Assembly (NCBI RefSeq): GCF_017876625.1 | Contig: NZ_JAGIOH010000001.1 | Coordinates: 372,001-436,000 of the forward strand | Source: Streptomyces syringium | Lineage (GTDB): Bacteria; Actinomycetota; Actinomycetes; Streptomycetales; Streptomycetaceae | Direction: 5' to 3' | DNA: 64,000 nucleotides | Shown: positions 35,858 through 51,903 of the stretch, piece after piece | How the letters are laid out: every line of letters begins with the position of its first letter | Numbering within the stretch: position 1 is the first letter of the stretch | Notes under the pieces: model-generated | Told to the model about the DNA's origin: nothing | Seen by the model: the letters and a program-made list of their open reading frames with translations, nothing else | The model's database searches: none | Made by a program: the position numbers and the translations under genes

Positions 35858-35883
35858 GAATGCATCCCCCCTGAGCTCGGCCG

Positions 35884-36058
35884 GCCACGTGCTCTTCGGC
35901 GTTCTCGCCCTCAAGAGGGATACCCGGTAACGCGATGGTCGAGTCCCCCGCAGCGGAAAGTGCTCCACTGTTCGAGGGGATGGAGCGGGCAGGTGCCCCT
36001 TTCGGCGGAACGTCCTTCGACGGGGTTTCCCTCATACAGACGCCGGGTAGCCCGTGGC
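35884..36058 (+). promoter_or_regulatory. candidate diverged cobalamin-riboswitch-like RNA
   Basis: This leader shares blocks with riboswitch 1: AAGAGGGAT then CCCGGT, the exact core CCCCGCAGCGG, a CCACTG block, and a 3' CTCATACAGACGCC that vaguely matches the GAGTCxGGAGACC element. GCCACG (35884-35889) and CGTGGC (36053-36058) could form P1. The P3 stem is not clearly conserved, so this may be a decayed or different RNA. It precedes the sterol C14-reductase gene. Confidence 0.3.
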
Positions 36059-36082: not shown

Positions 36083-37150
36083 ATGGCCGCTCTTGCCCTG
36101 ATGGCTTTCGTCCTGGTGTTGTTCGTGGGTTCCCGCTGGATTCCCGGGCGGTCGGTGCCGGCAGCGGTGACGGAGGATACGGGGGCGCCGCGGGCCTATC
36201 GCCTCAACGGTGCGTGGCTCTTCGCGCTGACCGCGAGCGCCGTGGCGGGCTGCTGGCTCTGGGCGCCGCGGGTTCTCGCCTGGCCGGAACGGCACTGGGG
36301 AGAGCTTCTCCTGGCGGCCAACGTGTTCGCGTTCGCGCTGGCCTGGCTGCTGTTCCTCACCGGTGGGCGCCGGACGCGGGCCGCGTCCCGGGTGCCCGGA
36401 TGGCGCCGTGGCCCGGCCGACTATTTCTACGGCGTGGAGCTGAATCCCGTATGGGCGGGGGTGGATCTGAAATTCTTCTCCTATCGCCCCTCCCTCATCG
36501 GTCTCTTCGTGCTCAACGTGTCCGCTATGGCTGCCCACTACGCGGACCAGGGATCGGTAAGCGGCCGGATGCTGCTCTACCAGCTCTTCTTCTTCGTCTA
36601 CCTGACGAACTATTTCCAGTTCGAGGCCGGCATGGTGTACACGTGGGACCTCCTCGCCGAGAGATTCGGATGGGGGCTGGTGTGGGGGGACTACGTTCTC
36701 GTACCGTTCTTCTACGGAATCGGCGGACGCACGCTCATCGACGTACAGAAACCCCTTCCCCTATGGCTGGGTGCGATGTGCTGCGTGCTGTTCGTCTTCG
36801 GCTTCTGGCTCTTCCGCGGAGCGAACGAGCAGAAGCACCGCTTCAAAACCGCTGGAGCGACCACCATCTGGGGCCGTCCGGTCGAGACGCTGGGGGGCAA
36901 GCTCCTGGTGTCGGGGTTCTGGGGCATCGGCAGGAAGCTCAACTACACCGGCGAACTGCTGGTGTACCTCAGCTGGACGCTGCTGTGCGGCGCCGAATCC
37001 GTCCTGCCGTACCTGCTCCCGGCCTTCCTCCTGCTCCTGTTCGTCCATCGGGCGCACCGTGACGACCACCGCTGCCGCGCCAAGTACGGCGAGCTCTGGG
37101 ACGAGTACTGCCGCCGTGCCAGGTTCCGGATGTTCCCGTTCGTCTACTGA
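36083..37150 (+). CDS. sterol C14-reductase family protein (ERG24/ERG4-like)
   Basis: The 355-residue membrane protein has eight to nine spans. It carries family marks GVELNPVWAGVDLKFF and the C-terminal GFWGIGRKLNYTGELLVYLSW plus HRAHRDDHRCRAKYGELWDEYC, matching Delta14-sterol reductase and DHCR7. It starts at ATG 36083 with GAAGGA upstream. In sterol synthesis this family uses NADPH to reduce the C14-15 double bond left by CYP51. It faces the frameshifted epoxidase gene, with stops 24 bases apart. Confidence 0.85.
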   Translation: MAALALMAFVLVLFVGSRWIPGRSVPAAVTEDTGAPRAYRLNGAWLFALTASAVAGCWLWAPRVLAWPERHWGELLLAANVFAFALAWLLFLTGGRRTRAASRVPGWRRGPADYFYGVELNPVWAGVDLKFFSYRPSLIGLFVLNVSAMAAHYADQGSVSGRMLLYQLFFFVYLTNYFQFEAGMVYTWDLLAERFGWGLVWGDYVLVPFFYGIGGRTLIDVQKPLPLWLGAMCCVLFVFGFWLFRGANEQKHRFKTAGATTIWGRPVETLGGKLLVSGFWGIGRKLNYTGELLVYLSWTLLCGAESVLPYLLPAFLLLLFVHRAHRDDHRCRAKYGELWDEYCRRARFRMFPFVY

Positions 37151-37173
37151 GCCGGCAGGATCCGCCCCTTCGT

Positions 37174-38458
37174 TCACCGGCCCCAGCCGTGTCCCGGGGG
37201 GCGGCTCATCCATCGCAGCCAGCTGAGGTACTCCCCGCACATCCGCGCGGACGTGCGCCATGTCCTGCGGCACCGTCCGGTCACGAGCTGTTCGCGCAGT
37301 GCGTGACCGGCGACGTGCAGGACGGCGCCCGTCAGAGGGAGGGGGCCGAGTTCCTCCGCGCACAGCAGCCGCATCATGCGGTCACGTTCGTTGCCGCTGG
37401 CGCGCAGGACGGCGTACATGCTGCGGCGCAGGTCGCCGGTGGGCCGGCTCAGGTCGCAGAAGATGCGGTGCATGGCGGCGGCGAGGTGTTCGTGTGCCCG
37501 TACGTCGGCCCGTCGGCGCCGGCCGTGAGCGGCGACGTCCCCGGTGCCGGCAAGGCATTCGGCGTCGCGCAGGCCGATGGTCAGTCCGGAGGCGGTGAGT
37601 GGGTGGCAGGTGCCGACCGCGTCACCGACCAGGGCGTAGGGACCCCGGCCGTGGAAGGTGCGCAGCCGGACCCGGTTGGCCGCCCACCGCACCGGCTGCT
37701 GCTCCAAGGCCGTGCACAGCGGACCGGCCAGGGCGGCGGGCAGGAACCGGGTGTAGAGGCGATGTACGTAGGACGGCAGGTCCACGGAGCGCAGGGGGGA
37801 CAGGGGGACGTCGATCGTCACCCGGATGGTGTCGTCGTCCAGCCGGTAGGCCAGTACGGGGCCGGGGCCGCCCGCGAAGACGTGGCCGTATCCCTCTGCG
37901 GGGAGGGCGAGGCCACGCAGCAGCACGCCGGCTGTGCGTGAGACGGTCGTGGCCGGGGCAGCGGAGTGGATCGTACGCCGCACCATGGAGGACTGCCCGT
38001 CGCCGCCGATGATGCGCCACACGCGTGCGTGCCGTTCGGGGCCGCTCCCGGGTGTAGGCGACCGTGGTGTGCCGGATGGAGGTGACGCGCGCGCCGAGAG
38101 TGAGGCTGATGCCGGGGTGGTCCGCTGCGACGGCCCGGAGTACGGCGACGAGTTCGCGGTGACGCATGGTGGCGGCTCGGTCGCCGCGTGGGCAGGCCAG
38201 CGTGATCGGGGCACTGCCGTCCTCCGGGTGCAGGACGAAACCCAGAGCCGGGACGGAGAGGGACGCGGGCATGCCGACACCGAGCCTGCGCAGCACCGCG
38301 ACTCCGTCGGGGTGGATCCATTCCCCGGCCAGCCGGGTGGGCAGCCGGCGCGAGGCCTCAAGGAGCAGGACGCGGTGACCGGCACGGGCATGGGCGAGTG
38401 CGGCGGCGCAGCCTGCCGGGCCCGCGCCGATGACGGCGACGTCGCACGGCGCGTTCAT
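37174..38458 (-). pseudogene. squalene epoxidase-like FAD monooxygenase, frameshifted
   Basis: Two frames together encode about 428 residues. The first (from ATG 38458) has the FAD motif VAVIGAGPAGCAAALAHARAG and RLAGEWIHPDGVAVLRRLG, close to the R-x-GE-x2-P-x-G element of squalene epoxidase. The second carries WRIIGGDGQSS and YALVGDAVGTCHPLTASGLTIGL, the GD/HPL FAD motifs. The frames join cleanly if one base is dropped in the GGG run at about 38047-38053 (residue 136). This may be a real inactivating mutation or a sequencing error. The enzyme would make 2,3-oxidosqualene for the cyclase in the same operon. Confidence 0.8.
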
Positions 38459-38464
38459 CGGTAT

Positions 38465-39829
38465 TCATCGTTTCCTGCGGCGGTATCGCACCGTGCACGG
38501 TCGACGGGGCAGGCGCATCACAGTGGTGCGGGCCTCGCGGACCTCGGGATCGGCGAGCTCGAAGTCGAACGCGCGCAGGAGGGCGCTCCAGATGACTTTG
38601 ATCGTTTGCTGGGCGAGGGTCGCGCCCAGGCAGGGGTGCCGGCCTCCGCCGAAACCGATCAGGGCCTGGGGAGTGGTGCGGTGTTCCGCACGGTCCGGAA
38701 GGTACCGGTCGGGATCGAATGCCTCGGGACGGCGGAACACACTCGTCAGGCGGTGCGACAGCCCCGGTGAGGCACACACCACGTAGCCGCGCGGTACCCG
38801 GTAGCCGTGGATGTTCAGGTCCCGCGCGGCCGGGCGCGGGAGCACCACGATGGGCGGGTGCAGGCGTTCGGCCTCCAGGAGGCAGTGGCTCAGCCGCTCG
38901 AGTTTGTGGAGTGCCGAAAGGGTGGTCGGCGGGTAGTCCGCGAAGGCTGCTTCCTGCTCCGCGCGCAGCACGGGCAGCCACTGGGGGTGCTGGAGCACGA
39001 GGACTCCCGTCCAGGCGGCAAGGGCAGTGGTAGGAACCGCGGCGAACAGCCAGTTGACCATGAGGGCGGCGGCGGTGTCCTCGTCCAGGGAACTGCCGCC
39101 GGGCCCCGTCGCACGCATGAGTTCCTCGAAATGGCTGCGCTCGCTGCCCTCGGGGCAGTCGCGGGGGGCGATCTCCTTGATGGCATGGACGAGGGTCTCT
39201 CGTGCCCGGTCGGCCAGGCCATGGGGCAGGGGACCGCGGGGGCCGATCACAGCGAACGCGAAGAGAGCTGCCTCCAGTCGGCCCAGCAGCCTGGGAAGGG
39301 CCGGACCCATGGTCCGGCCGAACCGGGGACCGATCAGACAACAGGCGGCGATGCGTGCGCTCAAGTCCCGCATCACTGCCAGGAGATCGAACGTGCCGTG
39401 CCCGTCCCATGGGGCGACATAGCGCTCGACCTCGTCGAACATGACCGGGATGTGCCGGGTCAGGGCATCGCGTCGGAGCAGGGGCAGCAGCAGGGAGTGC
39501 TGCCATTTCATGAGCTCGGAGGGAGCTGTGAGGCCCACACCTGGGCCCAGCAGAGGGGCCAGAAGCGGGTCGTAGAAGAGGTGGCGGTCCACTTCCGTGT
39601 CGTCTTGCAGGCCCAGGATGAGGGCGTTCGCCTGTGGCCCGCAGAACGACGCCATCCGCCGGCCCGGCAGTGAGAAGGCCACGGCTTCGCCCCGGCTGCT
39701 GTGCACACGCGCCAGGAAGCCCACAGGGTCCCGGAAGAAGGGGATCCCGTGACCGATCAGCGGCAGACCGCCGTCGAGAGCGGGGAGTTCCCGACCGCCG
39801 GGCGGGAGCGGTTCGTGGTCACCGGTCAT
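38465..39829 (-). CDS. cytochrome P450, CYP51-related, atypical I-helix
   Basis: The 454-residue P450 starts at ATG 39829, ATGA-overlapping the cyclase stop. ExxR is EAER in LLEAERLHPP and the haem loop is GFGGGRHPCLGATLAQ with Cys400. The region after the haem Cys (QTIKVIWSALLRAF and ending PRRPCTVRYRRRK) resembles CYP51. The I-helix reads FAAVPTTALA, lacking the acid-alcohol pair and the AGQHTS of true CYP51. It probably oxidises a sterol at another site. Confidence 0.88.
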   Translation of the reverse strand: MTGDHEPLPPGGRELPALDGGLPLIGHGIPFFRDPVGFLARVHSSRGEAVAFSLPGRRMASFCGPQANALILGLQDDTEVDRHLFYDPLLAPLLGPGVGLTAPSELMKWQHSLLLPLLRRDALTRHIPVMFDEVERYVAPWDGHGTFDLLAVMRDLSARIAACCLIGPRFGRTMGPALPRLLGRLEAALFAFAVIGPRGPLPHGLADRARETLVHAIKEIAPRDCPEGSERSHFEELMRATGPGGSSLDEDTAAALMVNWLFAAVPTTALAAWTGVLVLQHPQWLPVLRAEQEAAFADYPPTTLSALHKLERLSHCLLEAERLHPPIVVLPRPAARDLNIHGYRVPRGYVVCASPGLSHRLTSVFRRPEAFDPDRYLPDRAEHRTTPQALIGFGGGRHPCLGATLAQQTIKVIWSALLRAFDFELADPEVREARTTVMRLPRRPCTVRYRRRKR

Positions 39830-41883
39830 GGCCGGCCCCCGGGGCTCGGAGAAGAACTCGGAGAAGAGGGGGCGACGGACCGCAGGTAGCGGCCGATGGC
39901 CATGGCCGGGAAGTACACCGGGTAGAGGCGGTAGACGAGCATCATCGTGGTGAAGAAGACACCATTGACGTGGCCACCTGTCCAGGAGCCGTCCGCCTGC
40001 TGGTGGGTGCACAGCCAGCGGACGCCGTTCTCGACGGCGGGGTGCCGGGGGCCGAGCGTGTCGAGCCCGGCCAGGACCGCCCAGGCGGTCATCTCGGGCA
40101 GGCCCCCGTCGAGCGCGAGGTAACGGCGTTCGAGGCAACTTCGCCAGTCCTCCCCCCAACCGCCGTCCCCGAGCTGGGTCTCCTGCAGCCAGCGGGCCAG
40201 CGCGGTCATCGTCGGGTCGTCGGCCGGGACCCCCGCGGCGCGCAGCCCCCGGGCGGCGTGGAAGGCGGCGTAGGTGTAGTTGATGCCCCACGTTCCGCTG
40301 AAGGACCCGTCGTGGTTCTGGGACGCGCGGATGAAGGCGATGCCTCGTGTGATCGCCGTTTCGGCCCGGCCGCGCGCGGCCGGTTCCATCAGAGGCCGCA
40401 TGCGGCACAGGGCGGTGAGGACGGAGCCGGTACATTCGACCGAGGACGCGTCGACCATGCACCCGGCGAACATCTCCGTCGGGTTGAGCGCCTCCATCCA
40501 TTCGCCGGCACGCCGACGGTCGAGGGTGCCAAACCCGCCGTCGGGGTTCTGCCGGTCCAGCATGACTTTCAACGCGCCGCGCATGGCGTGCCGGTCGAGG
40601 TGGGCAGACGCCGGAATCCGGTGGGTGCCGAGACCGGTCGCATCCTGCGCCCGCAACAGGGCGCCCACGGCTTCAGCCGTGCAGTCGCTCACGGGCCAGC
40701 GGCTGTGACCGTCGGAAAACGCCCAGCCGTGGCGGACGGTGCGCAGGGGCGGTACCCGTCCGGTGTACGTGGTGATCTGCGCCTCGCGCAGGAAGGCGTG
40801 CGCCCGGTCGAGCGCCGGGCCCAGCCTGCCGTCCGGTTCGTGCTCCGGGCATGCCGCACCTCCCGACAGCAGTGCTTCCACGGCGAAGGAGGTGTCCCAT
40901 ACGAGGGACCGGTCCCCGCAGACGCGCAGACCGCGATCGTCCTCCCAACACCAGTAGCGCAGGCGGGCGACGGCGTCCTCCAGCAAGGGGTGCTGCCGGT
41001 CCCGTGCGAACAGCACCAGGCACTCGACCAGGGCATTCACCGAAGACAGGCCGTGGTGCGGCGAAGCGTGCTGCTCATCGACGACGGAGCGGTGACAGCG
41101 CTCCAGCCCGGCGCGGCGCAGGCGGGGACTGTGCACCCGCTCCCATCCGTGCAGGCACCGCTGCAGCAGGCGCAGTGCGCGACCGCCGACCACGTACACG
41201 TCCGTGCTTCGGGCGGGTGGGGCACCGGCTCCTGTGCCCGGGGCGGCGAACAACTCCCGCCGGAGGTCACGGGCGACAGCGCCCAGGTCCGCACGGAACT
41301 TCGCGCCGTACAGGTAGGCCATGGCCTGGTAGAGCATCCGGGTCCAGCCCAGCAGCCGTTCGGGGTGCAAGGGTGCCCACTTGGGGAGGAGCATCATCTC
41401 AGGGGGAAGCGGTACCACCTGCCGGTAGGGCACCAGGCCCAGCAGCGCGAGCCAGAAGAATCCCCATTGCGGAACGGCGTGGACGCCGCCCGGCTGTGCG
41501 TGGATCCACTGCCTGGCACCGGCAGCGAGGGGGTCATGGGGTTCGGTACCGAGCAGGCGCAGGGCCACGTAGGCCAGCGTCGTGCCGTACGCCGACGGCG
41601 GGGCCTGCGGGTGCATCCCCCAACCCCCCTCAGCCGTACGGGTCGTCCGGTAGCACTGGAGGATCGCCTGCCGTTCCGGCTCGTCCGGGGGACGTTCCAG
41701 GATGTGCATGACGATGACGTACTGGGAGAGGATCATGGTGCTCCATTCCATCTCTCCCTCCCACGCCCCGCTTTCGTGCTGGAGGCCGAGCAGGCGCCCG
41801 CAGGCGGCCCGGTACGCGCGGTGCGCGCCGGGCACGGGAATGAAGGCCGCGGAGTCACTGGTGGCGGTGTCAGGCGTCGCCAT
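39826..41883 (-). CDS. oxidosqualene cyclase (lanosterol/cycloartenol synthase-like)
   Basis: The 685-residue protein has the catalytic VSDCTAEA motif (Asp400), which is specific to oxidosqualene cyclases; hopene cyclases have DxDD. QW repeats are seen in DGSFSGTWG and LGDGGWGEDW, and SCLERRYL and KWAPLHPERLLGWTRMLYQAMAYLYG are typical cyclase elements. It would fold 2,3-oxidosqualene to a tetracyclic sterol precursor. Start ATG 41883 has GGAAGAA upstream. It heads the leftward operon cyclase - P450 - epoxidase. Confidence 0.93.
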   Translation of the reverse strand: MATPDTATSDSAAFIPVPGAHRAYRAACGRLLGLQHESGAWEGEMEWSTMILSQYVIVMHILERPPDEPERQAILQCYRTTRTAEGGWGMHPQAPPSAYGTTLAYVALRLLGTEPHDPLAAGARQWIHAQPGGVHAVPQWGFFWLALLGLVPYRQVVPLPPEMMLLPKWAPLHPERLLGWTRMLYQAMAYLYGAKFRADLGAVARDLRRELFAAPGTGAGAPPARSTDVYVVGGRALRLLQRCLHGWERVHSPRLRRAGLERCHRSVVDEQHASPHHGLSSVNALVECLVLFARDRQHPLLEDAVARLRYWCWEDDRGLRVCGDRSLVWDTSFAVEALLSGGAACPEHEPDGRLGPALDRAHAFLREAQITTYTGRVPPLRTVRHGWAFSDGHSRWPVSDCTAEAVGALLRAQDATGLGTHRIPASAHLDRHAMRGALKVMLDRQNPDGGFGTLDRRRAGEWMEALNPTEMFAGCMVDASSVECTGSVLTALCRMRPLMEPAARGRAETAITRGIAFIRASQNHDGSFSGTWGINYTYAAFHAARGLRAAGVPADDPTMTALARWLQETQLGDGGWGEDWRSCLERRYLALDGGLPEMTAWAVLAGLDTLGPRHPAVENGVRWLCTHQQADGSWTGGHVNGVFFTTMMLVYRLYPVYFPAMAIGRYLRSVAPSSPSSSPSPGGRP

Positions 41884-42162
41884 GGGGAGAATTCTTCCTT
41901 CGACACCTGATCGATAAGCCGCATGAGCAAAAAAATCCGGAACTCCCCATGATGGAGAAAGACTTATCACTCATACAAAATTACTCATCATATCTGTAAT
42001 CCAATGGTATCCGGGGCCATCCGGGAAGGCGCCCGGGAGGGGCGCGGACGTATTCGCACGCCGCCTCCGAGAATCCATGCGACCCCTTGCGCGAGACTTT
42101 CCCCCGACTCACTGGGAAGCCTTCCATGAAACCCCGGCTCTGAAAGTGGTAAGGGGAGGGCC
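41884..42162. promoter_or_regulatory. AT-rich divergent control region of the sterol cluster
   Basis: This 279-base gap separates the two divergent sterol operons and is the lowest-GC stretch in the window, about 41900-42000. The minus strand has a TATGAT hexamer (41992-41987) suitable as a -10 for the cyclase, and ATGAGT repeated directly with an 8-base gap (41988-41969). Near the rightward gene is the short palindrome GGAAG-C-CTTCC (42115-42125). A regulator binding site is plausible; no cognate regulator is encoded nearby. Confidence 0.55.
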
Positions 42163-43224
42163 TTGATTCTTGTGACAGGCGCAAGCGGGCATCTCGGTGC
42201 GAACCTTGCGCGACGCCTGCTTTTCGACGGTCATGAAGTCCGGGCATTGGTGTGGCCCTCCGTATCAGCCGGCGAGGCGCTGGCCGGCCTCCCGATCCGC
42301 CGAGCGGTCGGCGACGTGCGGGACCCGGAGGCGGTCGCGGCCGCCGTCGCAGGCTGTGAGGGCGTGTACCACTGCGCGGCGCGCATTTCGACGACGGCGC
42401 GCGGACATCGCGAAATCCATGCGGTCAATGTGCTGGGCACGCGCAATGTGCTGGAAGCGGCGCGGCAGCACGGCGTGCGCCGGGTCGTGGTGACCGGGTC
42501 GTTCAGCGCCACGGGCCCGACCCCGGGGCGGGCCAGCACCGAGCGCGACCTGCACTACCCCTTTGGAGCCCACACCCCGTACACGCGCAGCAAGGTGCTG
42601 GTGGAACACGAATGCTGCAAGGCCGCGGCCCAGGGCCTCGAGGTGGTGGTCGCGGTATCGACGGCGATCATCGGCCCGCACGACTATGTCCCGTCCCGGA
42701 TGGGGCGCGTGCTGCTCGACTTCGCGCACGGCAGGCTGTTCGCCTACATGCCCGGCGGCTTCGAGTTCGTCTCCGTCCAGGACCTCGTAGAAGGCCACCT
42801 GCTGGCCATGGAACGCGGCCTGTCGGGTCATAAGTACCTGCTGTCCACCGAATTCCGCACGGTCGAGCAGATGATGGACCTCTACGCACGGGCCACCGGG
42901 CGCCCCAAGCCGCGCCTACGGATTCCCCCACCGGCCATGGGGGCGCTGGCCCGGCTTGCCGAGGGACCGCGGTCGGTGCTGACGCCGCACCGGGAAGCGC
43001 GCTTCACCCCCGCGGCCGTTCGCTTCCTGCGCTCCGAGCGGCGGGCGGACTGTTCCCTCAGCCGGGAGGCTCTGGGCTACCGACCGACAGACATCTCCAC
43101 TGCCGTCGAGCAGGCCTACCGCTGCTTCGTGGACCGCGGGCTGGTGGAGCGGCGCCGGGCAGCGATGCGCACGCCCCGCCCCACCGTGCGGCGCGGGCGG
43201 GACGTGGGGGTGGGGCCACGATGA
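42163..43224 (+). CDS. NAD-dependent sterol dehydrogenase/decarboxylase-like SDR (SdmB/3beta-HSD type)
   Basis: The 353-residue protein starts at TTG 42163 directly after AAGGGGAGGG. It has the extended-SDR NAD motif TGASGHLGANLARRL, YTRSK (YxxxK catalytic pair) and SGHKYLLSTEF. The nearest functions are 3beta-hydroxysteroid dehydrogenase and NSDHL-type C4-carboxylate dehydrogenase. Next to the Rieske oxygenase it matches the SdmA/SdmB logic of bacterial C4-demethylation. Confidence 0.85.
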   Translation: MILVTGASGHLGANLARRLLFDGHEVRALVWPSVSAGEALAGLPIRRAVGDVRDPEAVAAAVAGCEGVYHCAARISTTARGHREIHAVNVLGTRNVLEAARQHGVRRVVVTGSFSATGPTPGRASTERDLHYPFGAHTPYTRSKVLVEHECCKAAAQGLEVVVAVSTAIIGPHDYVPSRMGRVLLDFAHGRLFAYMPGGFEFVSVQDLVEGHLLAMERGLSGHKYLLSTEFRTVEQMMDLYARATGRPKPRLRIPPPAMGALARLAEGPRSVLTPHREARFTPAAVRFLRSERRADCSLSREALGYRPTDISTAVEQAYRCFVDRGLVERRRAAMRTPRPTVRRGRDVGVGPR

Positions 43225-44645
43225 CGACCGGAACCTTCGCGGCGGGCAGCCGGGACACCGTCCCCGCGCCCCGCCTGCCGGCCCGCCACCTGCCGTGGCT
43301 GGGCCCCCTGCCTGCGTTCTACCGCGACCCGGTCGCCATGCTGCGCGCCGCACGGGAACAGGTCGGCAACGCCTTCGCCTTCCCCTTGCTGGGCCAGGAC
43401 ATCGTCTTCGTCTGCGGACCCGAGGCGCATGCCGAGGTGTTTGAAGCGGACGAGGCGGTCCTCAGCCCGCGGGAGGCCTATCGCTTCATGGCGCCGGTCT
43501 TCGGGCGCGGCATCGGTTACGACGCCGCCACCCCGGAGGAGATGGATGCGCAGATCGCGCCCATCCGGCCCGCACTCGGCTCCCGGAACCTCGACACGTA
43601 CGCCCGCGTCATGGAGGCGGAGGTACGGGCCCAGGTGGCGCGCTGGCCGGCGGAGGGCGAGATCGACCTGCTCGCCGAGCTGAACCGGACGACCGTGGCC
43701 ATCGCCACGCGTTGTCTCATCGGAGAGGAGTTCCACGGCCGCATGGGCCCGGAGCTGCCCCGCCTCTACCACGAACTGGAAAGCGGCATCCGGCTCGCGG
43801 GCATGCTCAGTCCCAAGGTACCGATCCCCGCGTTCCGGCGCCGCGACCGGGCCCGCGCGGCCATCGCCGAGGCCATCGGCGAGGCCATCGCGGAACGCCG
43901 CGGACGGCCTCCGGGGGACGGGCCCGTCGGCCTCCCCGATTTCCCTTCCGGCGCCGCCCCCGGGCAGGACATGCTCGCCGTGCTGCTCGCGGCCCGCACC
44001 CCGGACGGTCACCCGCTGCCCGACCGCATCGTGACCGGCATCCTGATCGCAATGATCTTCGCCGGCCAGCACACGAGCGCGGTGCTCGCCACCTGGACCG
44101 GCGTGCTGCTCATGCGCCACCCCGAGTACGTCCCACGGCTGCGCTCCGAGCAGCAGGAGCTGTGGACACCCGGCAGCCCGCTCGGCACCCGGGTCCTGCA
44201 CCGCATGGAACTCCTGGACAACTGCGTGCGCGAGGCCGAGCGGCTGCACCCGCCGCTGATCCTGCTGATGCGCAAGGCGCTGCGCGACACCACGATCCGC
44301 GGCCACCACGTGCCGGCCGGGGCGCTTGTCATGGTCTCCCCCGCGGTGGCGCACCGCATGCCCGAGGTGTTCCGCGACCCCGATCGCTTCGACCCCTCCC
44401 GCTACGGGGCCGGGCGCGCCGAGCACCGCCGCCCCTACGGCCTCATCGGCTTCGGCGGGGGCAAGCACCGCTGCATCGGACTCGCCTTCGCCTATCTCCA
44501 GGTCAAGGCGGTGTGGAGCGTCTTGCTGCGCGAGGTGGACCTGTGGCCCGTCACGTCCTACGCGCCGGACTACTCGACCTTCGTCCCCGCCCCGACCGCC
44601 CCCTGCACCGTCCGTTACCGCAAGCGTTCCATGGAGACGTCGTGA
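43221..44645 (+). CDS. sterol 14alpha-demethylase (CYP51)
   Basis: The 474-residue P450 has the CYP51 I-helix FAGQHTSAVLATWTG, EAER, and the haem loop GFGGGKHRCIGLAFAY with Cys418 followed by QVKAVWSVLLRE. It ends VPAPTAPCTVRYRKR, as CYP51s do. It removes the 14alpha-methyl of lanosterol- or cycloartenol-type sterols, generating the Delta14 bond that the C14-reductase would reduce. It overlaps the SDR gene as ATGA. Confidence 0.92.
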   Translation: MTTGTFAAGSRDTVPAPRLPARHLPWLGPLPAFYRDPVAMLRAAREQVGNAFAFPLLGQDIVFVCGPEAHAEVFEADEAVLSPREAYRFMAPVFGRGIGYDAATPEEMDAQIAPIRPALGSRNLDTYARVMEAEVRAQVARWPAEGEIDLLAELNRTTVAIATRCLIGEEFHGRMGPELPRLYHELESGIRLAGMLSPKVPIPAFRRRDRARAAIAEAIGEAIAERRGRPPGDGPVGLPDFPSGAAPGQDMLAVLLAARTPDGHPLPDRIVTGILIAMIFAGQHTSAVLATWTGVLLMRHPEYVPRLRSEQQELWTPGSPLGTRVLHRMELLDNCVREAERLHPPLILLMRKALRDTTIRGHHVPAGALVMVSPAVAHRMPEVFRDPDRFDPSRYGAGRAEHRRPYGLIGFGGGKHRCIGLAFAYLQVKAVWSVLLREVDLWPVTSYAPDYSTFVPAPTAPCTVRYRKRSMETS

Positions 44646-45826
44646 CCGGCGACGCCCGGCGCGCCCGGACGGCACGTCCGGGACCGCCCGGGCCCCCGGC
44701 ATTCACCGAGGCCCAGAGCAAGCGGGCCAGGGTACGGGCAGCCGGCATGGATCCCGACTACTGGTACGCCGTCGCCCATGAAAGCGAACTGCCCCGCGGC
44801 AAGACCCTGGCCACCCGTTTCTGGGGCCATCCCATCGTGGTCTACCGCGGTGCGGACGGCACCCTGCACGCTCTGGAGGACCGCTGCGCGCACCGGCAAC
44901 TGAAACTCTCCGGCGGTGAGGTCAACGGCTGCCATCTGACCTGCACCTACCACGGCTGGTCCTACGACGGCGACGGCAACGTCGTGCACTACGCCCACGA
45001 CCTGTTCGGCCGCGCCCGGCCCGAGGCCAAGGTGGCCGGCTATCCGGTGACCTCCCGGCACGGCCTGATCTGGATCTTCCCGGGTGAGCCGGCGCTGGCC
45101 CCTGTGCGGACCATCCCGGCCATCCCGGAATTGTCGGGGCGCAGGCCGTGGGCCCGGCTGGACGCCTCGTTCACCTGGCAGGCCCATCACTCGATGATCA
45201 TCGACAATGTCAGCGACTTCACCCATAGCTATCTGCACCGCCGCTTCCGCCCCTTCTGGGACGCCAAGCTCACCCGCCACGAGCTGATCGGAGACCGGGT
45301 GGAACTGTCGTACGCGACCCACGTGGGCGGGGGCCGCCTCACCTCCCGCTTCGTGGACCGGCGCCAGGTGGACACCACCTCCATCGAGCTTGCCTTCGAC
45401 TACCCCTACCAGCGCTCCGACACCGGCGGGTCGATCAAACACTGGTGCTTCGTGCTGCCGATGGACCGGCGCACCAGCCGGGTGTTCTTCATCTTCTACT
45501 TCGACGCGGTGAGGATCCCCGGCACCCGGTGGACGGTGCCCCGCAGACTGCTGCCGCTGTTCATGCGCGTGGCCGGAGCGCTCGTCGTCAAACCCTTGCT
45601 GGGCGAGGACGGCGAGGCCGTCGAGTCGGAACAGCTCGGCTACGAGACCCACTACGCCGCCCCCATTCTCGAACTCAACCCCGCGGTGGGCCTCTTCCAG
45701 GACCTCACCATCCGCAAATGGGAGGAATTCCTCGACCGCGACCGAGCCCGGCCCCGCCCCTCCGGCATCGCCACCGCCGACGGGCGCGTCGTCCCCTCGC
45801 GCCACGATTCACGCCACGATCGCTGA
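44642..45826 (+). CDS. Rieske non-haem iron oxygenase (SdmA-like C4-demethylase candidate)
   Basis: The 394-residue protein starts at GTG 44642 (GTGA overlap). The Rieske centre is Cys82-x-His84 (DRCAHR) and Cys101-x2-His104 (CTYHGW). The mononuclear iron site is in DNVSDFTHSYLHRRF (Asp-x2-His-x3-His). Known bacterial C4-demethylation uses such an oxygenase (SdmA) with an SDR (SdmB), as found here. It would oxidise the C4 methyl group to a carboxylate. Confidence 0.87.
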   Translation: MTGDARRARTARPGPPGPPAFTEAQSKRARVRAAGMDPDYWYAVAHESELPRGKTLATRFWGHPIVVYRGADGTLHALEDRCAHRQLKLSGGEVNGCHLTCTYHGWSYDGDGNVVHYAHDLFGRARPEAKVAGYPVTSRHGLIWIFPGEPALAPVRTIPAIPELSGRRPWARLDASFTWQAHHSMIIDNVSDFTHSYLHRRFRPFWDAKLTRHELIGDRVELSYATHVGGGRLTSRFVDRRQVDTTSIELAFDYPYQRSDTGGSIKHWCFVLPMDRRTSRVFFIFYFDAVRIPGTRWTVPRRLLPLFMRVAGALVVKPLLGEDGEAVESEQLGYETHYAAPILELNPAVGLFQDLTIRKWEEFLDRDRARPRPSGIATADGRVVPSRHDSRHDR

Positions 45827-45885
45827 CGCCCGTCCCTCCACCGCACCGTCGAACCGTGCCACCCTCATCACAGGAGAGCACAGCC

Positions 45886-47409
45886 ATGAGCCAGACGTCC
45901 GTCCCCCGCTCCGCCCAGTGGCTGGCCGACCACCGCTGGCTGTACGTGGTCCCGGTCCTGCTGCCCCTGTCCAAGGCGTACGCACTGGCCGAAGCGCTGT
46001 CCTCCAGGCTGCTCCGTCGCCGGGCAGGTGTGTTACGGCGCCACCGGCGGCAGGTGGCCCGCATGCAGGTCCGTGTGCGTGAGCGCGAGCGGCAGGGCGA
46101 CGCAGGGCTGCTGTGCACCGCACGTCCGCAGTGGCGGTCGATGTCGCACTCCCGCAACGAGTCCTACAAGCGTGGGGCTTTTTTGGTGCCGGCGCAGCTG
46201 GACGGCATTCTCCAGGTGGATGCGGAGCGCGGAACCGTGACGGTCGGTCCGGCGGTCACCATGGGGCGTCTGACGGCCGCGCTGCCGCGTGGCTGGACCC
46301 TGCCGGTGGTACCGGAGATGGAGGACCTCACCGTCGGCGGCCTCATCATGGGCTACGGCATCGAGACGTCCTCCCACCGCTACGGTCTGTTCGCGGACAA
46401 CGTGGAATCCTGCGAGGTCCTCCTGGCCAACGGTGAGGTGGTGGCGGCGGACCGCACCCGCCACGCGGACCTCTTCCACGCCCTGCCCTGGAGCCGCGGC
46501 ACCCTGGGGCTGCTGACCTCCGTGCGGCTGCGGATGGTCCCTGCCTCCCCGTGGGTCCGCCTCTCCTACCACCGGCTCGGCAGCGCGGCCGCGCTCACCG
46601 AGTGCATCGCGTCCCGTTCCGCCGGCCCCAACCCACCCGACTTCGTGGAGGGCTTCCACTTCTCCCCGACGGAATGCGTCGTGGTCACCGGAACATTCGC
46701 CGACCGTCCGCGCGCCGGCGACGGCGTGGTCAACCGGATGGGGCGGTGGTACAAGCCCTGGTACTACGAGCACGCCCGGGCGCGGTGCCGACTGCGGCGC
46801 AACGTCGAGTACGTGCCGTTGCGGGACTTCTACTTCCGGCACAGTCGCAGCATTTACTGGGCGGCCGAGATGCTCGTCCCGACCGGCAACCATCCGCTGT
46901 TCCGGTACGCCCTGGGCTGGCTGATGCCGCCCAAGGTCGCGTTCCTCAAGCGCACCGAGACGCCGGGGATCCGTCAGCTGTACCTGCAGAAAACGGCGAC
47001 GCAGGAGGCCCTCGTCCCTGTGCGGACACTGCCGGAGGCGATCGAGAAGTGCCGCGAGGCATTCCACGTGGACCGCATGTGGCTGTGCCCGGTCACGCTG
47101 CGCCGCTCGGATCCGGAGGGCCTGGTGAGTCCGAGTACCGCGGACGGGCTCTACGTCGATATCGCCGTCGTCTTCGAGACGCCGGAACCGGTCCGGCTCG
47201 GCCTGCCGTGGGACGCCCGGCAGGCCACCCGGGAATTCGAGGCCTGGCTGCGGGACAACGGCGGGTTCCAGGTCCCCTATGTGGCATCGCACATGACACG
47301 CGATGAGTTCTGGTCCATGTTCGACGGCCGAACCTATCTCGCCGCGCGCAAGAAGTACGGGGCGGAAGGCTCCTTCCTCGACATCCACGACAAGGCCGGC
47401 TGCAACTGA
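45886..47409 (+). CDS. Delta24-sterol reductase-like FAD oxidoreductase (DHCR24-like)
   Basis: The 507-residue protein has an N-terminal hydrophobic segment and a VAO/PCMH-type FAD domain with PVVPEMEDLTVGGLIMGYGI and ETSSHRYGLFADNVESCEVL, nearly the DHCR24/DIM1 signature. The C-terminal GSFLDIHDK also fits. It reduces the Delta24, or after alkylation the Delta24(28), side-chain bond. Start ATG 45886 has AGGAGAG upstream. Confidence 0.9.
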   Translation: MSQTSVPRSAQWLADHRWLYVVPVLLPLSKAYALAEALSSRLLRRRAGVLRRHRRQVARMQVRVRERERQGDAGLLCTARPQWRSMSHSRNESYKRGAFLVPAQLDGILQVDAERGTVTVGPAVTMGRLTAALPRGWTLPVVPEMEDLTVGGLIMGYGIETSSHRYGLFADNVESCEVLLANGEVVAADRTRHADLFHALPWSRGTLGLLTSVRLRMVPASPWVRLSYHRLGSAAALTECIASRSAGPNPPDFVEGFHFSPTECVVVTGTFADRPRAGDGVVNRMGRWYKPWYYEHARARCRLRRNVEYVPLRDFYFRHSRSIYWAAEMLVPTGNHPLFRYALGWLMPPKVAFLKRTETPGIRQLYLQKTATQEALVPVRTLPEAIEKCREAFHVDRMWLCPVTLRRSDPEGLVSPSTADGLYVDIAVVFETPEPVRLGLPWDARQATREFEAWLRDNGGFQVPYVASHMTRDEFWSMFDGRTYLAARKKYGAEGSFLDIHDKAGCN

Positions 47410-47430
47410 CCCATCAGAAGGGCCACGACC

Positions 47431-47967
47431 ATGCGACTGCTCGCGGACTCGCCGCCCACACCGGTGCGACGGCCCGCACTGGGACCGGGCGACCGCCTGG
47501 TTCTGGGCTTCCTCGCCTTCAGCCTCACGGTGGCGCTCTCCCTGGAGCTCTACTTCGTCCTCCACTTCCAGGACATGCACGAGCGGCACGATCTGTTCGC
47601 ACGCGGATTCCAGCTCTACGGAGCGGGAGACCGCACATACTCGGGGCAGGGCGACATCTATCTCCCCTTCGCTCTGGAGACCATCAACGTATTCCTCGTC
47701 CAGATACTCAACTGCGCACTCGGTTATGCCATCGTGCGCCCGCGCGCCTGGCGCCACCCCCTCCAGCTCGCCATCGGCTCGTACCTCTCCGGCTCGGTCG
47801 TCATCTACTTCTGGCACGCCCACGCGGCGGGATATCCCGACATGCCGGAGCACAGGTTCTGGAACTACGTCCTCTTCTACACCCCGAACCTCCCCTGGCT
47901 CGTGGGCAACCTCTGGATGTCCGCCGCCTCGTTCGGGGCCCTTGTCCGCGCCGTGAAGAAAAATTGA
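47431..47967 (+). CDS. EBP/EXPERA family sterol Delta8-Delta7 isomerase-like protein
   Basis: The 178-residue membrane protein has four to five spans and lines up with human EBP: LELYFVLHF for EGWFVLYY, GDRTYSGQGDIYLPFALETIN for GDSRY...METIT, HPLQLAIGS for HPLRFILQL, and a final PWLVGNLWM. The Glu residues of the active site (ELYF and LETI) are kept. EBP moves the Delta8 bond to Delta7, which DHCR7 could then reduce. Confidence 0.82.
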   Translation: MRLLADSPPTPVRRPALGPGDRLVLGFLAFSLTVALSLELYFVLHFQDMHERHDLFARGFQLYGAGDRTYSGQGDIYLPFALETINVFLVQILNCALGYAIVRPRAWRHPLQLAIGSYLSGSVVIYFWHAHAAGYPDMPEHRFWNYVLFYTPNLPWLVGNLWMSAASFGALVRAVKKN

Positions 47968-47981
47968 TGGGGGATTTCCGG

Positions 47982-48881
47982 ATGACCGAATCCACCGAGG
48001 TGGCGCTCGACCGCTACCGGCAACTGGCCGCGGGAGGCGACTGCGCACGCAGCGGCCACTACCGCGACCTCGTGACGTCCTACTACGACCTGGTCACCGA
48101 TCTGTACCTGGAAGGCTGGGGAGCGTCCCACCACTTCGCCCCCCTCAAGCCCGGCGACTCGCACGTCGAGGCCCTGGCCGCGCGCCAGAAGTTCCTCGCC
48201 GACCGTGCGGGTCTGCGCCCCGGAATGAAGGTCCTGGACGTGGGCAGCGGGGTGGGCGGTCCGGCACTCAACATCGCCGGTATCTCCGGCGCCCACGTGA
48301 CGGGCCTGGACCTCACCCCGGTGCGCGTGGAGCACGCCCGCCGACGGGCCCGCGACCTCGGCCTGCAGGAGCGGACCACGTTCGTCGACGGTGACGCAAT
48401 GCACATGCCCTTCGCCGACGCCTCGTTCGACGTCGTCTACGCCTTCGAGGCCATCTGCCACGCGGCCGACAAGGACCGCACCCACGCCGAGATCGCCCGG
48501 GTCCTCACCCCGGGCGGACTCTCGATCGGTTACGAGTGGCTGGCCGACGACGGACTGACCACCGAGGAAATCCACCGCCTCATCGAGCCGGTCTGCCGCT
48601 ACTACGCCCTGCCGCACCTCACCACGCCGGGCGGGCTCGCCGGACAACTGCGGCGAGCGGGCTTCACCGACGTCGTCGTGGGCGACGCCGAAGCGACGGG
48701 AGACCTCACCTCCACCTGGGACTACCTGGACACGCTGGCCGATCTCGGTGAACAGCTCGACGACTCCCCAGTCCGGCAGTTCATGGTCCAAGGGGCCCGC
48801 GCACTGACACGGGCCGCCCGGGAAGGAGCCTTCCTCATCGAGTTCTGGGAGGCTCGCAGGCCAGGAACGCCGGGCGCGTAG
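47982..48881 (+). CDS. sterol C24-methyltransferase (SMT/Erg6-like)
   Basis: The 299-residue protein has VTSYYDLVTDLYLEGWGAS (34-50) and HHFAPLK, the SMT-specific YYDxVTDFYExGWGxSFHF block. SAM motif I is VLDVGSGVGGPA, then DGDAMHMPFADASFDVVYAFEAICHA. It would transfer methyl to C24 of the sterol side chain. The chosen ATG 47982 has GGGGGAT 8 nt upstream; ATG 47967, overlapping the EBP stop, is an alternative that adds 5 residues. Confidence 0.92.
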   Translation: MTESTEVALDRYRQLAAGGDCARSGHYRDLVTSYYDLVTDLYLEGWGASHHFAPLKPGDSHVEALAARQKFLADRAGLRPGMKVLDVGSGVGGPALNIAGISGAHVTGLDLTPVRVEHARRRARDLGLQERTTFVDGDAMHMPFADASFDVVYAFEAICHAADKDRTHAEIARVLTPGGLSIGYEWLADDGLTTEEIHRLIEPVCRYYALPHLTTPGGLAGQLRRAGFTDVVVGDAEATGDLTSTWDYLDTLADLGEQLDDSPVRQFMVQGARALTRAAREGAFLIEFWEARRPGTPGA

Positions 48882-48898
48882 GCCAAGGGGGGTGCCCA

Positions 48899-50263
48899 GT
48901 GCGCGAACGGATCGCGATCGTGGGGGCCGGTGCGGCCGGGCTGGGAGCCGCGTGGGCGCTCAGCCGACACCCCGACCGCTTCGACTTCGAGGTGTACGAG
49001 ACCGCCGCCACCGTCGGCGGCAATGCCCGGACCGCGGACTTCCCACAGCGGGACGGCGGCACGGTGCCGGCGGACATCGCCGTCACCGCCTTCATCCCCT
49101 CCGTCTACCACAACCATGTCGAGCTGATGAGCCTGCTCGGCATCGAAGCCGTCGGCACCCGCTTCAGCTACGCCGTGCACTACGGCGACGACGTCTACGC
49201 CCACGACCTGGACACACCGTTGCGGCGCAGGCTGGCCGGCGACATCGCCGCCTTCCGGCGCCTGCTGCGCACCGTCGGAAGGTGCAACGCCCTCAACAAG
49301 CGCCCGTCATGGAGCACAACGGTGCTCAACCCCTTCAACTATGTCACCATGCGCCGGGCCCTCGACCTGTGGGGCATCTCGCAGGAGTTCCGCTACAAAG
49401 TCCTCAAGCCGCTGTTCGTGAACTTCGTCCTGACCTCGGGCGTCTTCGCCATGCCGGCTTCGGTGTTCGTCCGCTACATGGACTTCTTCGACATCGAGCA
49501 CAGTACGCCGATGATCACGTGGCAGGGCGGGACCCGCGCCGTCCACGCCCGGCTCATCGAAGGGTTCGCCGATCGCATCCACGTGGGGCGCCCCGTCACC
49601 GGGCTGTTCCGCGGGCCGGACGGGGTCCGGGTGCGGGACGCGGACGGCGTGACCGAACGATTCGACCAGGCGATCCTGGCCTGTAACGCCAACCACGCGC
49701 TGGCCTTGCTCCAGCCGCCCGGCGCCATGGAGCGCAGGGTGCTCGGGGCCGTGCGCTACGAGTCCGACCTGCACCGGGACGCGGTGGTACACACCGACGC
49801 CTCGCTCCTGCCGGACGACCATCTGCATGTCTCCGGCACGCGCAGCACCTTCGTGCGCCACTTCGGCGACCGGCCCGACAACTACGAGATCACGTACATC
49901 ATGCACAACCAGCAGCCCTGGGGTGACGGTGCCGTGTCGCCCTGCCTGGTGACCTATAACGCCCGCCGCCAGCCGGACCCGGCGAAGGTCATCAGCCGCC
50001 ACCGGTTCCAGCACGTCGTACACGACCTGCGGCACACCCTCGTGCTGCACGCGCTGGTGCCCCTGCTGCAGGGTCGTCGCAGAACCTGGTACTGCGGGGC
50101 CCACACCACTTTCAACAGTCAGGAGCACGCCTTCCTGTCCGGTCTGGCCGTAGCCCGCCAACTGGGGGCGGACTACCCGTTCACGGCGAACAAGGAGGCC
50201 ACCCGGTGGTTCAACTTCTATGGCCGCATGTGTCTGGGCATGCGCTTTCGCACCGCCCGTTGA
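48899..50263 (+). CDS. FAD-dependent oxidoreductase (amine oxidase-like), possible sterol desaturase
   Basis: The 454-residue protein starts at GTG 48899 with AAGGGGGG upstream. It carries IAIVGAGAAGLGAAWAL and an ETAATVGGNARTAD glycine-rich strand (FAD/NAD), the pattern of amine-oxidase and desaturase-like flavoproteins. No substrate motif is recognised. Its place among sterol genes and the lack of any ERG3-type C5-desaturase make a flavin-dependent desaturation or side-chain oxidation plausible. Confidence 0.8.
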   Translation: MRERIAIVGAGAAGLGAAWALSRHPDRFDFEVYETAATVGGNARTADFPQRDGGTVPADIAVTAFIPSVYHNHVELMSLLGIEAVGTRFSYAVHYGDDVYAHDLDTPLRRRLAGDIAAFRRLLRTVGRCNALNKRPSWSTTVLNPFNYVTMRRALDLWGISQEFRYKVLKPLFVNFVLTSGVFAMPASVFVRYMDFFDIEHSTPMITWQGGTRAVHARLIEGFADRIHVGRPVTGLFRGPDGVRVRDADGVTERFDQAILACNANHALALLQPPGAMERRVLGAVRYESDLHRDAVVHTDASLLPDDHLHVSGTRSTFVRHFGDRPDNYEITYIMHNQQPWGDGAVSPCLVTYNARRQPDPAKVISRHRFQHVVHDLRHTLVLHALVPLLQGRRRTWYCGAHTTFNSQEHAFLSGLAVARQLGADYPFTANKEATRWFNFYGRMCLGMRFRTAR

Positions 50264-50323
50264 CGCGCATGCCGGACAACCGGATCCGGCGCCCTTCACC
50301 CGGCCACGCATCGGAGGAGACGA

Positions 50324-51679
50324 ATGGCGGACCATGCGTCGACGAGCCCGGCGCCTCCCGGCGCCGGAACACCGGGCTGGACCGGTGCCCAGCGGGGCCG
50401 CCTGGCCCGGACGCTGCGGTGCACGGTGTTCCCGCTGGGCCTGCTGCTCGTCACGCCGCCGATCGTGATGCTCCTGTGGACGCTCGTCACCGCCTTCGAC
50501 GGAGCGATCCGGCCACTCGTCGATCCGGCCCGGTGGCCCGCCTTGATCTCCGCACTTCCGCACCCGAGCCTCTGGGCGGCGCTCAGCATCACGGGCTTCG
50601 TCGCGTTCGAGGCGGCGCTGCTGCGTCTGCTGCCGGGGCCTCAGCGGTACGGGCCGATCACCCCGGCCGGCGTCCGTCCCGTCTACCGGGCGAACGGCCT
50701 GTCCGCGCTGGCCGCGACGCACGCCGCGTATCTCGCCGCGAGCCTGGGGCCCGGCTGGTTTCCTCCCGGCGAACTCCACGACCGCTTCGGCGAGCTGCTG
50801 GCCACGGCATGCGTCCTGGCCTGGGCGCTCTCCGCCGCCCTCTACGCCAAAGGCCGGCTAGGCCCCTCCGGGCCCGATCACGGGACGACCGGCCATGTGG
50901 TCCTCGACATCTTCTGGGGGACGGAACTGCACCCGTCCCTCGGCCGCATCGATCTGAAGCAACTCTTCAACTGCCGGGTCGGAATGATGTCCTGGAGTCT
51001 GCTGCTGGTGTCGTTCACCGCCGCACAGCACGAGCAGACCCACGGCGTCTCGTCGTCGATGGCGGTGGCGACCGGACTGCAGCTCGCCTACATCGTGAAG
51101 TTCTTCCACTGGGAGACCGGCTACTTCGCAAGCCTCGACGTCATGCACGACCGTTTCGGGTACTACCTGTGCTGGGGCGTCACGGTATGGCTGCCGGGGG
51201 TCTACACCCTCAGCACGCTGTATCTGGTCGCTCATCCGCGCAGCCTGCCCTGGTGGGAGACCACGCTGCTGCTGACCACCGGCCTCACCGCGCTCGCCGT
51301 CAACTACTCGGCCGACGAACAGCGACAACGGGTACGGCGGACCGGCGGCGACACCAGGATCTGGGGCCGTCCGGCGAAGACCTTGCGCGCGTGCTACTCG
51401 ACGAGCGACGGGAGAGAGCACTCGACCGTGCTGCTCTGCTCGGGCTGGTGGGGCCTGTCCCGGCACTTCCACTACCTGCCGGAACTGGTGATCGCCCTGT
51501 GCTGGGTGGCCCCGGTCGGCGGCGCGCGGGTGCTCCCCTACTTCTACCCGGTGTTCCTGGCCGTGCTGCTGGCCGACCGCACCGGACGCGACGAGCGACG
51601 CTGCCTGCAGAAGTACGGCGACGCCTACCGTGAATACTGCCGTCGGGTGCGCTGGAAGGTGATCCCGTACCTGTACTGA
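50324..51679 (+). CDS. 7-dehydrocholesterol reductase-like (DHCR7 family)
   Basis: The 451-residue membrane protein has about nine spans. FWGTELHPSLGRIDLKQLF and GWWGLSRHFHYLPELVIALCW, with DERRCLQKYGDAYREYC and a terminal VIPYLY, are classic DHCR7/ERG24 marks, closer to DHCR7 than the paralogue at 36083. It starts at ATG 50324 with GGAGGAG upstream and is the last gene of the rightward sterol operon. It would reduce the Delta7 bond. Confidence 0.9.
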   Translation: MADHASTSPAPPGAGTPGWTGAQRGRLARTLRCTVFPLGLLLVTPPIVMLLWTLVTAFDGAIRPLVDPARWPALISALPHPSLWAALSITGFVAFEAALLRLLPGPQRYGPITPAGVRPVYRANGLSALAATHAAYLAASLGPGWFPPGELHDRFGELLATACVLAWALSAALYAKGRLGPSGPDHGTTGHVVLDIFWGTELHPSLGRIDLKQLFNCRVGMMSWSLLLVSFTAAQHEQTHGVSSSMAVATGLQLAYIVKFFHWETGYFASLDVMHDRFGYYLCWGVTVWLPGVYTLSTLYLVAHPRSLPWWETTLLLTTGLTALAVNYSADEQRQRVRRTGGDTRIWGRPAKTLRACYSTSDGREHSTVLLCSGWWGLSRHFHYLPELVIALCWVAPVGGARVLPYFYPVFLAVLLADRTGRDERRCLQKYGDAYREYCRRVRWKVIPYLY

Positions 51680-51780: not shown

Positions 51781-51903
51781 CTACCCGTAGTACTCCGGAG
51801 CTACGCGGAAAGTGCGCTCCCCGGCGGGACGCCGACCACGCGGCACGATCCATAACTTCGGTACCGGAAACCCGAAAAGCACCCGGTACGGAAGGACCCC
51901 ACC

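Follow-up and report, generated by a model that had tools for sequence, protein, structure and literature searches.

What might a Streptomyces make with an almost complete cluster of sterol enzyme genes? The question is raised by a stretch of 64,000 nucleotides from Streptomyces syringium (G000:C1:372001-436000 in a 7.7-Mb genome of two contigs), the whole of which we call the window. Between position 36083, the ATG of a first ERG4/ERG24-family gene (SR1), and 51679, the end of a second (SR2), profile matches and trees reveal a clustered, near-complete sterol enzyme set that includes EBP, SMT and DHCR7-clade members. This is what a preliminary description of the locus had proposed, and every family that it named is found in its place by profile and structure-sequence matches. 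Its list can be extended by a second CYP51-like P450 (CYPb), an LkcE-like flavoenzyme (FADox) and a flanking MMPL transporter. The term 'eukaryote-like' that it applied to the pathway does not hold: the models nearest to the C4-demethylase pair are the bacterial SdmA and SdmB, the methyltransferase (SMT) lacks the Sterol_MT_C domain and is separated from eukaryotic rows by a branch of support 100, and the cyclase groups in trees with other bacterial 2,3-oxidosqualene cyclases (OSCs). The active site of that cyclase has been rebuilt, and this is stronger ground than the gene set itself for expecting a new steroid. We lean, if narrowly, towards the view that the intact version of the cluster, in S. 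mashuensis, would make a noncanonical steroid that is methylated at C24 of the side chain and demethylated at C4 and C14, with a ring system set by the rebuilt cyclase.

The cyclase and its active site

The window cyclase scores 650 bits against the OSC profile TIGR03463 (cut-off 851) and 254 against the hopene cyclase profile TIGR01507; the cyclase of G213, a genome of a second Streptomyces lineage, likewise lies under the OSC cut-off at 749 bits. Among solved structures the match to human lanosterol synthase reaches 353 bits (2.6e-104), and those to hopene cyclases at most 175. Both a quick tree of 46 rows and a careful tree of 23 place the enzyme among other OSCs from actinomycetes and metagenomes, with support of 96/99 in the careful one. 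A 100/100 branch sets off the hopene cyclases, and two eukaryotic rows also stand apart. Together with its relatives the window cyclase forms a group on a long stem of 0.55-0.59 changes per column (support 100 and 100/100); in the careful tree this stem places the divergence before the split from S. mashuensis. Judged from its sequence, the enzyme is a bacterial OSC of a fast-diverged clade. A grouping with hopene cyclases, which the preliminary description had named as a result that would tell against it, is not found in profiles or trees, and the residues likewise rule out a hopene cyclase, with V453 and C456 where the hopene type has Asp at both positions.

In the numbering of human OSC, used throughout, the window cyclase retains D455, C456, C533, W387, W581, F444, F696 and V453. 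Of the features expected of a lanosterol-type enzyme, the catalytic D455/C456/C533 and the DCTAE motif (noted in the preliminary description and confirmed here) are present, and the His232/Tyr503 pocket pair is absent. All 11 rows of the window clade carry H232W and Y503L, where His and Tyr occur in all 26 canonical bacterial rows. Position 449 (Cys in the human enzyme) is Ser in the window OSC and His in 25 of the 26 canonical rows, and position 230 (human Trp) is Leu as against Tyr in 26 of 26. Altogether 9 of the 139 columns that are at least 93% conserved in the canonical rows (230, 231, 232, 337, 443, 449, 503, 504 and 530) are switched in at least 10 of the 11 window-clade rows. The S. 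caatingaensis and G351 enzymes were removed before this count; the former has Arg at 232 together with W387R and W581R, and the latter has Tyr at 232. Four of the nine switched columns are ligand contacts of human OSC in the docking table of PMC8911567 (p=0.008; papers are cited by PMC number, each as represented by an excerpt). With the two enzymes restored there are eight positions and three contacts (p=0.038), and thus the enrichment hinges on two rows.

What would loss of this pair mean for the product? In human OSC the reaction is ended by deprotonation at His232, and plant enzymes that lack it are tied to products other than lanosterol (PMC6515059). The plant OSC 8j5z has Tyr at position 232 and Trp at 503. 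The residues within 5 angstroms of lanosterol have been given for a plant dammarenyl-type enzyme (PMC12858397), of which Y256 and V530 would correspond to positions 232 and 503. Retention of V453 points the other way, this residue being linked to the synthesis of lanosterol and not of cycloartenol (PMC5101207).

A possible further noncanonical cyclase occurs in G351 (C2 ~578900-582900; L049/L050), where an OSC with H232Y and F696C adjoins an epoxidase. About 2.3 kb from these genes lies a reading frame that, in our own reading, starts like a polyketide synthase.

Gene layout and tailoring enzymes

The genes form two divergent operons. The minus strand carries OSC, CYPb and the squalene epoxidase (SE), and the plus strand SDR, CYPa, RSK, FAD24, EBP, SMT, FADox and SR2 (42163-51679); SR1 on the plus strand and MMPL on the minus strand stand apart from both, on the side of the epoxidase. 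For the starts chosen, the spacing is operon-like, including overlaps of 4 nucleotides at CYPb/OSC, SDR/CYPa, CYPa/Rieske and EBP/SMT. Apart from the epoxidase, the reading frames of all cluster genes in the window are open. Chance resemblance is ruled out by the profile scores (for example E=2.8e-195 for TIGR03463) and by conservation in other Streptomyces.

CYPa has the signature motifs that we take to define CYP51, with AYRF..PVFG.G and AGQHTS stretches kept in the eight rows read, whereas CYPb lacks them, having AAVPTT in place of AGQHTS. The two separate in an unrooted P450 tree, and among the loci compared CYPb was found only in the window, L012, L013 and L014; it is likely to be a tailoring oxygenase. 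SdmA and SdmB are by far the best NCBIfam matches of RSK and SDR. A branch of support 100 splits the two reductases, SR1 falling with the delta14-reductases 4QUV and 9l5r (support 100) and SR2 with proteins annotated as 7-dehydrocholesterol reductase, of which there are many among its homologs. FAD24 contains GWTLPVVPE..DLTVGGL and DLFHALPWS motifs that we take to resemble those of DHCR24, and its likeness to that enzyme depends on this assumption. By sequence the EBP match is weak (Pfam 3.3e-7, human EBP 9.4e-4). The two best structural matches of its model (pLDDT 73) are both human EBP, 8w0r with a template-modelling (TM) score of 0.68 (probability 1.00) and 6oht with 0.67. Residues E39 and E83, to which we presume a role in the isomerase, are invariant in all seven rows.

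The SMT has 209 homologs at 1e-20, of which the first to be annotated 'sterol 24-C-methyltransferase' scores 242 bits (P0020). Among the best 120 of these 209, the specific names outside Streptomyces are mostly 'sterol 24-C-methyltransferase' or 'Delta(24)-sterol C-methyltransferase', and a few are 'SAM-dependent methyltransferase' or UbiE. In alignment the protein shares YYDLVTDxY..GWGxSxHF, GVGGP, CH and YEW stretches with fungal SMTs, which we take to be the conserved sterol and S-adenosylmethionine (SAM) regions. The Pfam domain Sterol_MT_C (PF08498) is absent from it and from the first 32 homologs listed. The side of the tree opposite to the Streptomyces proteins, which holds the eukaryotic rows, includes bacterial rows too.

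FADox resembles LkcE over its whole length and weakly 2b9w, which we take to be a fatty-acid isomerase; its structural model has a pLDDT of 39.5. Matches at 1e-60 occur in 6 of 384 Streptomyces genomes, five of them within OSC clusters (Fisher p=5e-9, assuming that the samples of 392 and 384 genomes share their OSC-positive members). All three clusters with SR2 (the window, S. mashuensis and G213) have FADox, and all five clusters with FADox have EBP and SR1; G163 and G303 have EBP and SR1 and neither FADox nor SR2. This nesting fits a C5-desaturase that would act between EBP and SR2. The correlation covers few independent cases, and the role is put forward as a candidate. An ERG3-type C5-desaturase encoded elsewhere in the genome was considered and may yet contribute, but no tie to the pathway is seen: the window genome does have a PF04116 gene elsewhere, and such genes are not enriched with OSC, being found in 27 of 35 OSC-negative Streptomyces relatives and in 7 of 8 OSC-positive genomes. 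In the sixth genome with FADox, G242 (L067 19360-20000, L068 1-718), the homolog is 53% identical and no other cluster gene occurs on the 30.9 kb read; some of the reading frames nearby look transposase-like to us.

The squalene epoxidase-like gene of the preliminary description is present as a family, yet it is split between two minus-strand frames, with open reading frames at 37622-38458 and 37174-38391. Compared with S. nondiastaticum (L012), S. mashuensis (L013), UNOB3_S3 (L014) and AV19 (L015), which all have an open frame here, the window is short of two nucleotides inside or beside ~38032-38052. Apart from this gap the two halves are open, with 82-87% identity to S. nondiastaticum, and thus the loss would be recent or a sequencing error. 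Unless it is an error, the pathway is predicted to be silent in the window strain. The best solved-structure match of the S. mashuensis ortholog is the squalene monooxygenase 6c6n (1.3e-23), and a quick epoxidase tree has a long branch for G303. Genes of squalene-synthase type lie elsewhere in the window genome, at G000:C1:6.389-6.391 Mb (SQS_PSY, 249 and 204 bits, an assignment at family level).

Table 1. Features of the cluster, in window positions.
Feature	Position	Strand	Evidence
MMPL/RND-family transporter	33665..35968	-	Pfam MMPL 1.2e-66; best NCBIfam MmpL3 269 bits (cut-off 1400)
SR1, C14-sterol-reductase clade	36083..37150	+	PF01222 4.3e-65; best solved structure 4QUV delta14-sterol reductase 3e-57
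SE, squalene epoxidase, frame-shifted	37174..38458	-	PF08491 5.7e-19 on C-terminal frame
CYPb, CYP51-like P450	38465..39829	-	best solved structure CYP51 7jj1 4.8e-69
OSC, 2,3-oxidosqualene cyclase, altered active site	39826..41883	-	TIGR03463 650 bits (E=2.8e-195); human lanosterol synthase 2.6e-104
Divergent intergenic region between operons, 279 bp	41884..42162		sequence and spacing
SDR, SdmB-like, putative C4-demethylation	42163..43224	+	best NCBIfam SdmB NF052578 292 bits
CYPa, CYP51, putative sterol C14-demethylase	43221..44645	+	best solved structure CYP51 7jj1 1.5e-94
RSK, SdmA-like Rieske oxygenase, putative C4-demethylation	44642..45826	+	SdmA NF052579 360 bits; Rieske domain 1e-23
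FAD24, putative DHCR24-like FAD-linked side-chain reductase	45886..47409	+	PF01565 5.8e-19
EBP-fold protein, putative sterol delta8-delta7 isomerase	47431..47967	+	PF05241 3.3e-7; human EBP 9.4e-4
SMT, C24-sterol-methyltransferase, short form	47964..48881	+	homolog annotations; motifs; tree
FADox, LkcE-like flavoenzyme, candidate sterol C5-desaturase	48899..50263	+	6f7l LkcE 1.5e-24; 2b9w 8.5e-5
SR2, DHCR7-clade sterol reductase	50324..51679	+	PF01222 1e-69; homolog annotations; tree

The MMPL gene also adjoins the cluster in L012, L013, L023, G163, G303 and G119, and its protein is likely to be the exporter of the product. Identification as a BstA-type sterol transporter is unsupported, with 30 bits to BstA as against 269 to MmpL3. 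Next to MMPL lies an iron-uptake set (29404-33627) of a periplasmic binding protein, a FecCD permease and a ferric-reductase-like protein, unrelated to sterols. Just past the other end of the cluster ARAGORN finds a 91-nucleotide tRNA-Glu(ttc) on the minus strand (51823-51913). The idea of a tRNA-borne island finds no echo in 15 related loci, none of which has a tRNA.

Occurrence, proposed pathway and competing explanations

How widespread is the cluster? In a sample of 392 Streptomyces genomes, 8 have an OSC at 1e-120; in seven it belongs to a multi-gene cluster, and G351 shows OSC and epoxidase only. In a class-wide draw the window genome was the single OSC-positive among 394, the other 393 having none, and a search of 296 genomes around G213 added no further OSC-positive genome. 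More Streptomyces OSCs are present in protein databases, along with two from Nonomuraea and two SR2 homologs from Actinomadura. The full set of 13 genes occurs in S. mashuensis; no stop interrupts the matched stretches, and identity to the window genes is 78-87%, except for CYPb (70%) and MMPL (73%).

Most of these families recur, in different gene orders, in a second Streptomyces lineage (G213, G163, G317, G119 and G303; the OSCs of G317 and S. curacoi are identical), a recurrence that supports the pathway reading. Between the window and G213, SDR, RSK, FADox, SR2, SR1 and CYPa are 66-78% identical, EBP 62%, SMT 51%, OSC 46% and SE 43%. Across all five genomes the values are 46-49% for OSC, 37-51% for SE, 51-54% for FAD24, 51-57% for SMT, 53-64% for EBP, 56-66% for SR1, 56-72% for FADox, 58-68% for CYPa, 63-78% for SDR, 64-76% for RSK and 39-64% for MMPL. 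By these identities divergence is greatest in OSC and SE; the contrast holds with the core tailoring enzymes (56-78%), SMT and FAD24 coming close behind. A further Rieske oxygenase, with 29-30% identity to RSK and possibly a tailoring hydroxylase, stands next to SMT in G317 and G119 (L042 7411-7884, L046 913-1386). A smaller set occurs in UNOB3_S3 (L014 10001-15493), whose four-gene OSC-SMT-CYPb-SE operon could serve a different triterpenoid pathway.

What is seen directly comprises the matches to families, the order and conservation of the genes, and the altered active-site residues; from these we infer the reactions, their sequence and the product. SE would epoxidise squalene supplied by the squalene-synthase-type genes elsewhere in the genome, and OSC would convert 2,3-oxidosqualene to a tetracycle that retains the 14-methyl group. 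SMT would methylate C24. CYPa would remove the 14-methyl group, SR1 reduce the delta14 bond, and RSK with SDR remove the methyl groups at C4. EBP would then shift delta8 to delta7, FADox is a candidate to add delta5, and SR2 would reduce delta7. FAD24 would reduce the side chain, CYPb may hydroxylate the product and MMPL export it.

Not everything favours this scheme. The substitution of H232 and Y503 leaves a lanosterol-type product not assured. In the window genome the epoxidase is frame-shifted, and the only second PF08491 match there scores 29.6 bits. Several enzymes fit their families imperfectly. SDR (292 bits) and RSK (360 bits) each fall under the NCBIfam cut-off of 600. The best solved structure for SMT is MitM, with the '24-sterol C-methyltransferase' 6f5z at only 1.7e-9, and its best NCBIfam match is an N-methyltransferase far under cut-off. 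The solved structures matched by SR2 are just two, both delta14-reductases and neither a DHCR7, and the best ones for FAD24 are cytokinin dehydrogenase and DprE1, none being a DHCR24. In EBP the histidine that lies four residues before the first Glu in the human protein is Ala in 7 of 7 rows. In none of eight genomes is an ERG3-type gene linked to the cluster. Nor is the set always whole. In UNOB3_S3, AV19 and S. caatingaensis, of the same OSC clade, RSK has no match at 1e-20 and the ERG24 family is absent; S. nondiastaticum likewise lacks an ERG24-family gene and has neither EBP nor FADox at the locus; the S. klenkii locus is truncated; and in the second lineage a stop falls in the matched stretch of SMT in G213 and of SDR in G119.

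Could the altered cyclase then make a protostane-, dammarane- or other triterpenoid in place of a lanosterol-type product, with tailoring enzymes adapted to that product or acting separately? The uniform exchange of His232 and Tyr503 in the 11 rows (S. caatingaensis and G351 being excluded), the different residues of the plant enzyme 8j5z at the same positions and the products tied to plant enzymes without His232 (PMC6515059) all speak for this, and its main argument is that the cyclase can exist without RSK or ERG24-family tailoring, as UNOB3_S3, AV19 and S. caatingaensis indicate. We nevertheless consider it rather unlikely. A signature-intact CYP51, a C14-reductase, EBP and SdmAB-like genes have been kept, at 79-87% identity between the window and S. 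mashuensis, and they would be hard to explain unless the substrate were of the 14-methyl, delta8 type; the retained V453 (PMC5101207) agrees with a lanosterol-type outcome.

A different doubt concerns whether the pathway is still alive. It may have been inherited intact and now be dead or dying in the window strain and several relatives, a history that would account for the two-nucleotide frameshift of the epoxidase, the gene losses in S. nondiastaticum, the truncated locus of S. klenkii and the degenerate active-site letters of the S. caatingaensis OSC. This we judge improbable, given that the epoxidase frames have otherwise stayed open and close to those of S. nondiastaticum, that the other window genes are open, that the S. 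mashuensis genes are free of stops in the matched stretches, and that the frameshift may be a sequencing error. A TAG in the Rieske match of S. nondiastaticum was discounted as a sign of decay, lying outside a stop-free stretch of 366 residues. Actinomycetes commonly degrade environmental sterols, and the operon might modify sterols taken from fungi, plants or animals; with both OSC and an epoxidase within the cluster, and families that are biosynthetic, this seems very improbable. The reading that we prefer remains that of a C24-methylated, C4- and C14-demethylated steroid from the S. mashuensis cluster. A bolder claim, which we regard as unlikely, is that this represents a new class of steroid in Streptomyces, formed by a cyclase without the His232-Tyr503 pair, with a CYP51-like P450 decorating the ring, an LkcE-like flavoenzyme replacing the ERG3-type desaturase, and a de novo 24-methyl line in free-living bacteria.

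Comparison with known systems

What could be learned from this cluster? Steranes in rocks are widely taken to indicate eukaryotes, and the bacterial SMTs described in 2023 came from uncultured sources, with activity in a myxobacterial isolate awaiting confirmation (PMC10070321). S. mashuensis, a named culture-collection species with the complete gene set, brings the question of bacterial C24-methylation within experimental reach. The cyclase clade offers a natural experiment in the rebuilding of a lanosterol-type active site, with nine near-fixed changes, four of them at ligand contacts of the docking table. Should the role of FADox be confirmed, a flavin-dependent enzyme would carry out a step for which these clusters have no linked ERG3-type gene.

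Among the open-licence papers listed in our searches, no title or opening abstract describes the cluster or its product. In the excerpts to hand, actinobacterial sterol genes receive single-sentence mentions in PMC10202945 and PMC12004948, and a Streptomyces C14-demethylase appears in a tree of PMC13277303. The de novo pathways described for sterols in Myxococcota, Methylococcaceae and Calothrix (PMC10202945, PMC12004948, PMC13277303) share with ours a bacterial OSC, CYP51, C4-demethylation of SdmA/SdmB type and other sterol steps. Clustering is shared as well, with Calothrix (PMC10202945) and Sandaracinus amylolyticus (PMC12004948), and thus the statement of the preliminary description that bacterial sterol sets are usually scattered is only partly right. 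Unlike what is given for those pathways, the present one has a Streptomyces host, SMT, DHCR24-like and DHCR7-clade genes in one cluster, an LkcE-like flavoenzyme, an altered cyclase active site and an extra CYP51-like P450.

The metagenomic clusters of PMC10070321 likewise have SMT beside sdmA/sdmB and other sterol genes, but the bacteria concerned are uncultured. The SMT found in Streptomyces differs in being a short form that a branch of support 100 separates from rows with Sterol_MT_C, and in belonging to culturable species. The second Streptomyces lineage has most of the tailoring enzymes in common (51-78% identical where aligned, MMPL apart), and differs in its canonical His232/Tyr503 cyclase, a CYPb that was not found, its gene order and the second Rieske gene of two members. 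Gromomycin clusters (PMC13010261) are also Streptomyces triterpene clusters with a cyclase and, in some, a methyltransferase, yet gromomycin is built independently of squalene, from hexaprenylguanidine via a farnesyl diphosphate (FPP) synthase and a prenyltransferase. Our locus is not of this kind, for neither enzyme has a Pfam match among the 19 genes at 29.4-55.4 kb (20 queries, the epoxidase being entered as two frames). Set against these systems, the gene set is a variant of bacterial sterol biosynthesis, and the change in the cyclase is the part with the greatest potential.

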